A DNA stretch of 64,000 nucleotides from Thermococcus thioreducens (GTDB taxonomy: Archaea; Methanobacteriota_B; Thermococci; Thermococcales; Thermococcaceae): the NCBI RefSeq assembly GCF_002214545.1, contig NZ_CP015105.1:868001-932000 (forward strand), written 5' to 3'. A program made the position numbers and the translations under genes. Positions 49,939 through 55,787 of the stretch are shown one piece after another. Each line of letters starts with the position of its first letter. Position 1 is the first letter of the stretch. The notes under the pieces were generated by a model. It was given only the letters and a program-made list of their open reading frames with translations. It made no database searches and was not told the origin of the DNA.

Positions 49939-50541
49939 ATGGCAAAGGGTAACCCTAGGAAGAGGGCTGCTGCTACCAAGGATAAGTGGAAGATGAAAGA
50001 GTGGTACATAGTTTACGCTCCGGACTTCTTCGGAAGCAAGGAGATCGGCCTCACTCCTGCCGACGAGCCGGAGAAGGTCATCGGTCGCGTTATAGAGACC
50101 ACCCTCAAGGATCTCACCGGTGACTTCACCAAGGGCCAGGTCAAGCTCTACTTCCAGATCTACGACGTCAAGGGCCAGAACGCCTACACCAAGTTCAAGG
50201 GCCACACCCTCGCTAGGAGCTACATAAGAAGCCTCGTCAGGAGGAGAACCACCAGGGTTGACGGCATATTCAACATCACCACCAAGGACGGCTACAAGCT
50301 CCGCGTCATGGGCATGGTCATCGCCTACAGGCGCATCCAGACCAGCCAGGAGAGGGCCATCAGAAAGATTATCCAGGACATCATCTACAAGAAGGCCGAA
50401 GAACTCAACTACAAGGACTTCATCCTTGAGGCCGTCAGCGGCAAGATGGCTGCTGAAATAGCCAAGGAAGCCAGGAAGATATACCCGATCAAGAGGGCCG
50501 AGATCAGGAAGATCAAGGTTCTCGCCGAGCCGGAGGCCTGA
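49939..50541 (+). CDS. rps3ae: 30S ribosomal protein S3Ae (eS1)
   Basis: A 200-residue eS1 protein with the conserved [40 protein letters not shown] and [32 protein letters not shown] precedes the start. It follows pcc1 by 15 bases. Codon use is that of a highly expressed gene. Confidence 0.96.
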
Positions 50542-50641: not shown

Positions 50642-51697
50642 ATGAAGTTCATAGTCAAAACCCAGCGGGGAATGGAGAGTGTCGCCGCCAACTACATCAG
50701 GGAGGCCATTTCAGACGCCAGCGTTTGGGCGTCTCCCATGGGATATTCTGGCCTCATCATTGTTGAAACAAGCGATGAAAACGCCGGGGAAAAGATACTC
50801 GAAATTCCCGAGGTCGAGCGCCTCATCCCCGTCATCGCTGAAGTTCCCGCCGAGCTTGAGGCGATCGTCACTACTGCCGAAAAAATTGCCCCCCTAATCA
50901 GCGAAAACGAGACCTTTGCCGTGAAGACGAAGAGGCGCGGAAAGCATGGGTTCACCAGTATGGACGTCAACCGTGAGCTGGGTGCTAGGATAAGGGAGCT
51001 TACGAACGCTGACGTGAACCTCAGCTGGCCGGACAGGGTCGTCCAGGTTGAGATAATAGGCGACAAAGCTTACATTTCAGTGGTTCCTGGGGAGGAGTTC
51101 AGAAAGTTCACGCCAGACAAGATAGACGCTAGAAAACTTTTCCGAAAGGTTACACTTGTCCAGATGCCCTACTGGGGCAATCACAAGGCCTGTCGCTCCT
51201 TCGGCGAAAAGATAGGCCGGGCTGCCCAGGCCTTTGAGGTGAAGGAACTGATAATCGCCCCCAAGGAGAAGATGGACGCCTTTGAGCTGGCCGAGTTCAT
51301 AAAAGGCGTTAAAATCGGCCAGGAGAGCAGGCACCAGATACAGCGCGAGGCTTATCCCTGGAAGGTTGAGAAGGTTCCGGTGAGCGTCTGGGATCTCTAT
51401 CAGGTTGTCCGTGATAAGAGGCGGGGCAAGAGACTGCTGATAATAACCGACCCCAAGGGGCCGACGCTCGCCGAGGTGAAGGATAGGCTCGCAAAGGATA
51501 TGTTCTATGCAAAGGAGGTCGTAATCTTCGTTGGCTCCCGTGAGGGCATCCCAAGGGGCCTCTTCCGCTTCGCGGACTACGTGGTTGACCTTGCACCGTA
51601 TATGACGTTTGCTACAGAGCACGGCATTCCGGCCGCGCTCGTTTCACTCTGGGAGGTTTACGAGGAGTACGCTCGGAAGCGGGAGAAAAAAACCTGA
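50642..51697 (+). CDS. THUMP-SPOUT RNA methyltransferase-like protein
   Basis: 351 residues. Residues 1-160 form a THUMP RNA-binding region (ISENETFAVKTKRRGKHGFT, then VNRELGARIRELTNADVNLS). The C-terminal half has a SPOUT-like fold with the knot loops VVIFVGSREGIPRGLFRFAD and YMTFATEHGIPAALVSLWEV. It is related to COG1818 proteins and is likely a tRNA or rRNA methyltransferase of undefined site. TATA GGCTTTTAAACC is at about 50599-50610 and GGAGGTG precedes the ATG. Confidence 0.8.
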   Translation: MKFIVKTQRGMESVAANYIREAISDASVWASPMGYSGLIIVETSDENAGEKILEIPEVERLIPVIAEVPAELEAIVTTAEKIAPLISENETFAVKTKRRGKHGFTSMDVNRELGARIRELTNADVNLSWPDRVVQVEIIGDKAYISVVPGEEFRKFTPDKIDARKLFRKVTLVQMPYWGNHKACRSFGEKIGRAAQAFEVKELIIAPKEKMDAFELAEFIKGVKIGQESRHQIQREAYPWKVEKVPVSVWDLYQVVRDKRRGKRLLIITDPKGPTLAEVKDRLAKDMFYAKEVVIFVGSREGIPRGLFRFADYVVDLAPYMTFATEHGIPAALVSLWEVYEEYARKREKKT

Positions 51698-51742: not shown

Positions 51743-51803
51743 CGGCGTCAGACCCTAAGGTCCTCCTCACCCTTCGGGAATCCGCCGTAGTCATCATCCG
51801 CCG
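51743..51803 (-). ncRNA. C/D box guide sRNA 1
   Basis: The minus strand reads C box ATGATGA (51791-51797), a 13-base spacer guide, D' box CCGA, C' box GTGAGGA, a 12-base guide GGACCTTAGGGT and D box CTGA (51748-51751). The ends CGGCG and CGCCG can pair to close the k-turn stem. A TATA-like GTTTTAAAACC on the minus strand at about 51821-51831 is at the right distance. Archaeal C/D sRNAs guide 2'-O-methylation of rRNA or tRNA. By the fifth-base rule the D guide addresses the U in ACCCUAAGGUCC. The target RNA was not located. Confidence 0.82.
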
Positions 51804-51832: not shown

Positions 51833-52555
51833 TCATGCAATGAGGTAGAAGAGGACGGCGCCGATGAAGCCACCTAAGAGGCTCGCGAGGAAGTTAGTTG
51901 AGTTGTTGTTGGTTATTCCCTCGTTCTCAAGGGTTGCCCCTATAAGGCTGTCCAGGTTAACGCCGATGAAGCCACCAAGGGTAATGGCGAAGAGCATTGC
52001 TACCTTCTCCGACGTTAGTGGGAGGGCGAAGGGGGCTATTACAAATGCACCCACAACGGCAAAGACTTCCCCCGCCAATGAAACCGCCCCGTTTACTCCT
52101 GGCTTGACGGGTTTAAGGGTCGTGATAAGCTTGGGACTTTTTCCAAAGATTTTGCCAAGCTCACTGGCAAGGGTATCTCCGTTGGCCGTTGCTATGGCCG
52201 CAAAACTGGCCGCCCAGAAGACGTCCATCTGGGAGAAGTGCTCAAAGGCAAGAAAAATTACCGCCGCAAGGCCATTGCCGAGGACGTTTCCCCAGCTCCT
52301 TATTCCACCCCTGCCCTGAGCGGCACCCAGTTTGGCCTTTTCCCCGAATTTGTATTTGGTGGCCAGAACACCCAGAACCACAAAGGTCAGCAGAGCGGCA
52401 AAGGGATATACTCCTCCCAGTTCGATGACGGCCAATCCAAGGAGTGCCGCGGCAATGGCGCCTTTGGCGTCCAGAGCCTTGAACTTATACGAACCGATGC
52501 CGAGTCCTGCGACCACTACTATGTCCACTGCCACTCTCTCAAGCATCTCTGCCAC
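51833..52555 (-). CDS. DUF92 family membrane protein
   Basis: A 240-residue membrane protein with six or more helices. It matches the DUF92/TMEM19 group (KLGAAQGRGGIRSWGNVLGN, then NGDTLASELGKIFGKSPKLI and PGVNGAVSLAGEV). Plant VTE6 in this group phosphorylates phytyl phosphate, so an isoprenyl-phosphate kinase role in archaeal lipid metabolism is possible. The C-box sRNA 1 promoter overlaps its 3' end. Confidence 0.82.
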   Translation of the reverse strand: MAEMLERVAVDIVVVAGLGIGSYKFKALDAKGAIAAALLGLAVIELGGVYPFAALLTFVVLGVLATKYKFGEKAKLGAAQGRGGIRSWGNVLGNGLAAVIFLAFEHFSQMDVFWAASFAAIATANGDTLASELGKIFGKSPKLITTLKPVKPGVNGAVSLAGEVFAVVGAFVIAPFALPLTSEKVAMLFAITLGGFIGVNLDSLIGATLENEGITNNNSTNFLASLLGGFIGAVLFYLIA

Positions 52556-54766: not shown

Positions 54767-54794
54767 TTACACCACCTCCAGTTTGTTCCGTTGA

Positions 54795-54851
54795 TCAGCG
54801 AAGCGAAGAGTCCTCATCGGCTTCCCTCAGGTGTCCTCGGCCTCATCATCT
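54795..54851 (-). ncRNA. C/D box guide sRNA 2
   Basis: The minus strand gives C box ATGATGA (54843-54849), 12-base guide GGCCGAGGACAC, D' box CTGA, C' box ATGAGGA, 12-base guide CTCTTCGCTTCG and D box CTGA (54795-54798). Both spacers have the canonical 12-base length. Terminal pairing is short (GA/TC only). It fills the gap between the DUF2666 and ridA genes and may be processed from their shared transcript. Targets were not located. Confidence 0.8.
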
Positions 54852-54868
54852 CCGTTCTGGTACGGCCT

Positions 54869-55669
54869 TCACTTCTTCTCCAGGTACTTCTCAAGGCTCT
54901 TGGCTGGAACGTCGAGGGGCAGACCTATTTTCCCAAGGGCGGTTCTCAGGGCATAGACCCTTGCGTGTTCATGGAAGCCGGTCGGAGCGTAGTTCTCGGC
55001 CGGGAAGTGCCTGTACTTTTCAACGACCCCCGGTATCTCGGCCTTTTTGACCTTCTTGAATTCACCAAACCATGCCTCTATTCCCTTGATGTCAATTCCA
55101 GCGTAGAAGGGCAGTTTGAGCGTGATGCTCTCGTTTATGCTGGCGAGGAGCCTTGCAACGTCTGCCATGGGAGTCTTCTCATCGATAATGAGCCTTCTAA
55201 CAGCCCTCCACTTTGTTTTGCCGCTCACATGGAAGGCTACAAAGTTGATGTGGTCTTCGTTGTATGGGAATACTATTCTAACTTCGCTCAAGGGCTCCTC
55301 TGGGTACTCGACCGGCACTTTTTTGGAGAGCACCTCTCTCACGAGCAGGGCCTTGGCGACCTCAACGAGATGCTTTTTGAGCTTCTTGTCCTCCTCGAAG
55401 ACGAGCTGGCCAAGCTTCCTGGCAGTCCCGGGTGATTTGAGAGCAATGATGGCATCGCCCAGGTCTTTCTTGGCCAGCTCCCCCGCGAGGCTCATTATGC
55501 CTGCGACGTTCATTACCTCCGTGAGGTACTCGGGTATCTTGGCGTTGACAGTATTGGCTATGCTCGCTATGAAGTGGGCAACTTTCTCGTCATCCATATC
55601 CAGGAGCCTGTCAGCCACCTTCCAGCTCCCGTGATGTGCCGTAAACACTATCTGATCCTCAACCTTCAT
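54869..55669 (-). CDS. DUF2666-like protein with internal duplication
   Basis: 266 residues made of two related halves. Each has an opening strand pair and a helical segment: QIVFTAHHGSWKVADRLLDM with VAHFIASIANTVNAKIPEYL, and HINFVAFHVSGKTKWRAVRR with VARLLASINESITLKLPFYA. This fits the archaeal DUF2666 family, of unknown function. The ATG at 55669 is preferred after GGTGA. No catalytic motif is apparent. Confidence 0.65.
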   Translation of the reverse strand: MKVEDQIVFTAHHGSWKVADRLLDMDDEKVAHFIASIANTVNAKIPEYLTEVMNVAGIMSLAGELAKKDLGDAIIALKSPGTARKLGQLVFEEDKKLKKHLVEVAKALLVREVLSKKVPVEYPEEPLSEVRIVFPYNEDHINFVAFHVSGKTKWRAVRRLIIDEKTPMADVARLLASINESITLKLPFYAGIDIKGIEAWFGEFKKVKKAEIPGVVEKYRHFPAENYAPTGFHEHARVYALRTALGKIGLPLDVPAKSLEKYLEKK

Positions 55670-55787
55670 CGCTGTCACCAGTGGTTATGGATGGCAGGCC
55701 CTATTTTAGCTTTTTCTCGACCATCTCAAAAAAAGTTATAAATCGACCCGAGCACTCCAGTTTGAGAGAGTGAAAGAGGGAAGAAAA

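Follow-up and report, generated by a model that had tools for sequence, protein, structure and literature searches.

A double-guide C/D box sRNA gene in Thermococcus thioreducens with two predicted methylation targets in domain V of 23S rRNA

We report a 61-nt gene on the minus strand of Thermococcus thioreducens, at positions 51743 to 51803 of the window (the whole 64-kb stretch of DNA analyzed), that very probably encodes a double-guide archaeal C/D box sRNA targeting two sites in 23S rRNA for 2′-O-methylation. The gene has the boxes, spacing, and closing stem of such an sRNA and two guides complementary to 23S rRNA, both of which are conserved across the family Thermococcaceae, and the host genome encodes fibrillarin. 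Neither protein annotation nor the curated thresholds of Rfam recover it.

Architecture of the sRNA gene

Read directly on the minus strand, the gene runs CGGCG-G-ATGATGA-CTACGGCGGATTC-CCGA-AGG-GTGAGGA-GGACCTTAGGGT-CTGA-CGCCG (Table 1). An earlier note on this DNA had proposed four boxes, two guide spacers, and a 5-bp CGGCG/CGCCG stem, and each of these lies where it was placed. The features typical of the class are present: a terminal C/D k-turn closed by a short stem, an internal C′/D′ k-loop with a short spacer, and guides of about 12 nt (here 13 and 12). The inner four of the five stem pairs and box C are invariant among 19 distinct aligned Thermococcus sequences.

Table 1 Features of the sRNA gene and its surroundings (window positions)
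Feature	Position	Strand	Basis or remark
Complete C/D box sRNA gene, 61 nt	51743..51803	-	Sequence, BLAST, model search, alignment
Closing stem, 5′ strand (CGGCG)	51799..51803	-	Sequence; alignment
Unpaired G in k-turn bulge, preceding box C	51798	-	Sequence
Box C (ATGATGA)	51791..51797	-	Sequence; invariant in alignment
D′ guide (CTACGGCGGATTC), 13 nt	51778..51790	-	13/13 Watson-Crick with 23S 2405-2417; predicted Cm2409
Box D′ (CCGA; CTGA in some relatives)	51774..51777	-	Sequence
D′-C′ spacer (k-loop; AGG), 3 nt	51771..51773	-	Sequence comparison; varies among relatives
Box C′ (GTGAGGA; in Pyrococcus mostly RTGATGA)	51764..51770	-	Sequence comparison
D guide (GGACCTTAGGGT), 12 nt	51752..51763	-	10 Watson-Crick + 1 G-U with 23S 2378-2388; predicted Um2382
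Box D (CTGA)	51748..51751	-	Sequence
Closing stem, 3′ strand (CGCCG)	51743..51747	-	Sequence
TATA-like TTTTAAAA	51823..51830	-	Sequence; putative promoter element
DUF92 membrane protein gene (PF01940), upstream on the strand of the sRNA	51833..52555	-	Domain match
THUMP + SPOUT_MTase_2 gene (PF14419; AF2226-like SPOUT methylase), convergent neighbor, not part of the sRNA	50642..51697	+	Domain match

When both strands of the window were scanned for the full box-and-spacing motif, this was the single match, and 200 first-order Markov simulations of the window produced no instance of the motif. That the sequence is a chance look-alike yielding no RNA product is therefore hardly credible, the more so because it is kept in 52 of 61 species despite diverged flanks. 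Its single-strand folding energy is not unusual (z = -0.81), which would fit a chance origin, but strong folding energy is not expected of C/D sRNAs.

Complementarity of the two guides to 23S rRNA

Both guides were searched against the 16S and 23S rRNA genes of T. thioreducens and its 44 tRNA genes. The D′ guide pairs over its whole length with 23S rRNA, and the D guide forms its 10 Watson-Crick pairs at positions 2 to 11 and a G-U pair at position 1, with position 12 unpaired; 16 nt separate the two duplexes. The earlier note had proposed a search of stable RNAs for partners of the guides, and both partners turned up in one molecule. Its version of the D guide target, ACCCTAAGGTCC, has to be replaced by the genomic sequence, GCCCTAAGGTCG, because of the wobble at position 1 and the unpaired position 12.

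Under the box+5 rule, by which methylation falls on the nucleotide opposite guide position five, counted from each box, the predicted targets are Cm2409 for the D′ guide, in the context GAAU[C]CGCCGUAG, and Um2382 for the D guide, in the context GCCC[U]AAGGUC. Base 1 of this numbering is where the Rfam match to 23S rRNA starts (genome position 1821437, minus strand), and the mature 5′ end may shift the numbers. Pairwise alignment puts the equivalent positions in Escherichia coli rrlB at about 2313 and 2286, respectively, in domain V; the values are approximate since the region has diverged.

Shuffling the guides gave an estimate of how often such pairing arises by chance. Full 13/13 pairing was reached by 2 of 20,000 shuffled D′ guides and at least 10 contiguous Watson-Crick pairs by 308 of 20,000 shuffled D guides, while just 1 of 20,000 shuffled guide pairs placed both matches within 100 nt of each other at looser thresholds. 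As a positive control, the D guide of sR45 (54793 to 54853) was found to pair with 23S rRNA near position 2158 at guide positions 2 to 11, the same geometry. The D′ guide also matches a tRNA with a TGT anticodon (L053) over nine contiguous pairs, at guide positions 2 to 10, on the 3′ side of the anticodon stem; at 9 bp this match is weaker than the 13-bp match to 23S rRNA, and we set it aside as likely incidental.

We propose that the terminal C/D k-turn and the internal C′/D′ k-loop would each bind L7Ae, which would recruit Nop5 and fibrillarin. With the D′ guide paired to 2405-2417 and the D guide to 2378-2388, fibrillarin would then 2′-O-methylate C2409 and U2382, the nucleotides opposite the fifth guide positions. 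Transcription, RNP assembly, and both methylations are steps that we infer from the sequence.

In the predicted fold of 23S rRNA, both target sites overlap paired strands, and binding of the guides would open them. The sRNA might thus be chiefly a folding chaperone for domain V, clamping two strands of adjacent hairpins while assembly proceeds, with methylation secondary or confined to a single site. The two targets share one small subdomain, with 16 nt between them, and a role of this kind is among those proposed for archaeal dual guides in PMC4644070 and PMC7994747. The guide geometry, however, is canonical for methylation at both boxes, and the two roles are compatible; we consider a primarily chaperone function unlikely. 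We would speculate, with as little confidence, that the two guides form one clamp that keeps two neighboring domain V hairpins (near E. coli 2280-2320) open during 50S assembly at high temperature, and that lineages in which the gene has been lost or broken by a transposon have compensated otherwise.

Conservation and loss in the Thermococcaceae

A model search recovered the sRNA with strong scores in 52 of 61 Thermococcus genomes, in line with the BLAST matches, and alignment of the Thermococcus loci revealed a constant sRNA body between flanks that differ widely. The same two guide cores recur in homologues from five other genera of the Thermococcaceae, Pyrococcus included (we take this to be our genus g3, with G064, G066, and G072 presumably P. 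abyssi GE5, P. horikoshii OT3, and P. yayanosii CH1). The search covered 115 genomes of the phylum and gave no homologue beyond the family, and a scan of named genomes returned only Thermococcus-type MAG contigs and a few bacterial records resembling chance matches. At L134, L135, and L137 (positions 1501-1562), in other genera of the family, model matches identified a different C/D sRNA, with a GCTTGGCCGCTCC-like D′ guide and a AAACCTCGGT-like D guide.

Among the 26 genomes in which the 23S target segment was read, it varies only by one G in one genome. Across 33 distinct sRNA variants, D′ guide positions 2 to 9 and D guide positions 3 to 11 are always Watson-Crick paired to the rRNA, a tally that is partly circular because a variant had to contain part of both cores to match the pattern used; alignments from BLAST and the model are free of this circularity. 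Position 1 of both guides, the D′-C′ spacer, and the far guide ends vary. Fixed pairing positions with drift elsewhere are the pattern expected under selection on rRNA pairing, and this family-wide conservation, together with the pairing itself, bears out the double-guide reading given in the earlier note. We also considered guide-target covariation at position 1 of the D′ guide, where Thermococcus has C and Pyrococcus has G. Since the 23S target is invariant at that place, position 1 is a free position and no compensation has occurred.

Several lineages lack the sRNA, and because some of them are represented by near-complete genomes, it is not essential. Intermediate states also exist. G030 retains only the stem, the C box, and the D′ guide. 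A degenerate copy in G052 (L139) has kept the D′ and D halves and lost the C box. In G075 (L182, C1:1752150-1754450), the orthologous sRNA gene is naturally interrupted by an IS607-like element encoding a MerR-HTH serine resolvase and a TnpB-like protein; the 5′ part of the sRNA adjoins DUF92, and about 1.9 kb separates it from the 3′ part.

In G035, G043, G053, and others, the sRNA has been lost and the SPOUT gene is absent too. Many sRNA-less genomes (L172-L177 and L179-L181) are missing the THUMP-SPOUT gene (PF14419; 50642-51697 in the window), and in some such loci DUF92 adjoins the apparent 3′ end of a ribosomal protein gene (49939-50541 in the window). This joint absence probably reflects one deletion. 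A functional tie between the sRNA and THUMP-SPOUT was considered and rejected, since the two are often absent together but are separable in several genomes: in Pyrococcus, which has the sRNA, the SPOUT gene is at a distance of several kilobases or more, G048, G056, G061, and G062 have the sRNA without the SPOUT gene, and G023 has the SPOUT gene without the sRNA. Given these separations, plain co-deletion is explanation enough.

Genomic context, published catalogues, and significance

The earlier note described the sRNA as downstream of the THUMP-SPOUT gene, which is true in the convergent sense only; on its own strand, the sRNA follows the DUF92 gene. The TATA-like element mentioned there is present, as TTTTAAAA. 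It ends 25 nt upstream of box C, and the stem begins 19 nt past it, close to the TATA-to-start distance of about 23 bp given for T. kodakarensis in PMC4247193. The DUF92 stop codon of the window genome is 38 nt upstream of box C, with TTTTAAAA in between. A TATA-like match 33 to 35 nt upstream of box C is present in roughly half of the 30 scanned Thermococcus loci, and none of the loci with such a match has the DUF92 stop in box C. Of the 42 loci at which the position of the stop could be assigned, 17 show that second arrangement, with the TGA inside box C, and these 17 include all eight Pyrococcus loci and several from Thermococcus; PMC7994747 describes comparable 3′ overlaps of sRNAs with genes in other archaea. 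A scan for promoters and terminators with bacterial models, which are ill-suited to archaea, gave no match. In the lineage of the window, a TATA-like promoter belonging to the sRNA itself probably drives its transcription, and Pyrococcus and several Thermococcus species probably release the sRNA by trimming the DUF92 mRNA.

Since the sequence follows DUF92 in the same orientation and the stop falls inside the C box at those 17 of 42 loci, it could alternatively be a k-turn element in the 3′ untranslated region of the DUF92 mRNA, bound by L7Ae and affecting that mRNA, with the rRNA complementarity incidental. We regard this as very improbable, for three reasons: 13/13 and 10 Watson-Crick pairs to neighboring 23S sites are far beyond chance, the guides are conserved and not the boxes alone, and G061 and G062 keep the core with no DUF92 nearby.

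The methylation guide that we favor reached no sR family of Rfam 15 at the gathering score, and relaxed thresholds gave no family identity either, whereas generic C/D models do match. The best Rfam match was RF00095 (snoPyro_CD, a Pyrococcus C/D box sRNA), at 26.5 bits against a gathering score of 45. RF00095 resembles the window sRNA in box order, spacing, and length, and two Pyrococcus relatives score 35 to 36 bits, but the guide sequences of the model differ from those found here. The window also contains sR45 (RF01274; minus strand, 70.5 bits), just after the minus-strand gene at 54869-55678. It shares with the new sRNA its class, its k-turn architecture, and a D guide that pairs with 23S rRNA at positions 2 to 11, but it has other guides and targets and is already catalogued.

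An RNA-seq study of seven archaea has catalogued double-guide C/D sRNAs (PMC4644070), and PMC7994747 reviews them. Those described there resemble ours in having two guides with sites within 100 nt on one rRNA; ours differs in having no homologue outside the Thermococcaceae among the genomes of the phylum searched. For T. kodakarensis, PMC9014305 gives 61 C/D sRNAs and PMC4247193 gives 54 C/D sRNAs among 69 small RNAs; a list of 46 Pyrococcus sRNAs is cited in PMC7994747, and a P. furiosus RiboMeth-seq data set (GSE153501) is named in PMC7758197. The probable orthologue in T. kodakarensis KOD1 lies at 1100951-1101013 on the minus strand, and the 23S position in the KOD1 genome agrees with the published one. 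Judged by genome order, this orthologue could be Tko-sR34 or Liu's sR32 or sR33; the copy at 1100951-1101013 is absent from the published table of circular sRNAs. The T. kodakarensis lists of PMC9014305 and PMC4247193 and the Pyrococcus list cited in PMC7994747 probably contain the orthologue, unnamed.

The sRNA is a conventional double guide of an established class and leaves the picture of the field unchanged. It adds a family-wide guide RNA that stands outside the Rfam catalogue and has two precise, testable methylation sites. Within one archaeal family, this single sRNA gene is met in several states, namely, embedded at a stop codon, apparently under its own promoter, half deleted, or split by a transposon, and these states illustrate how such genes are rewired and lost.
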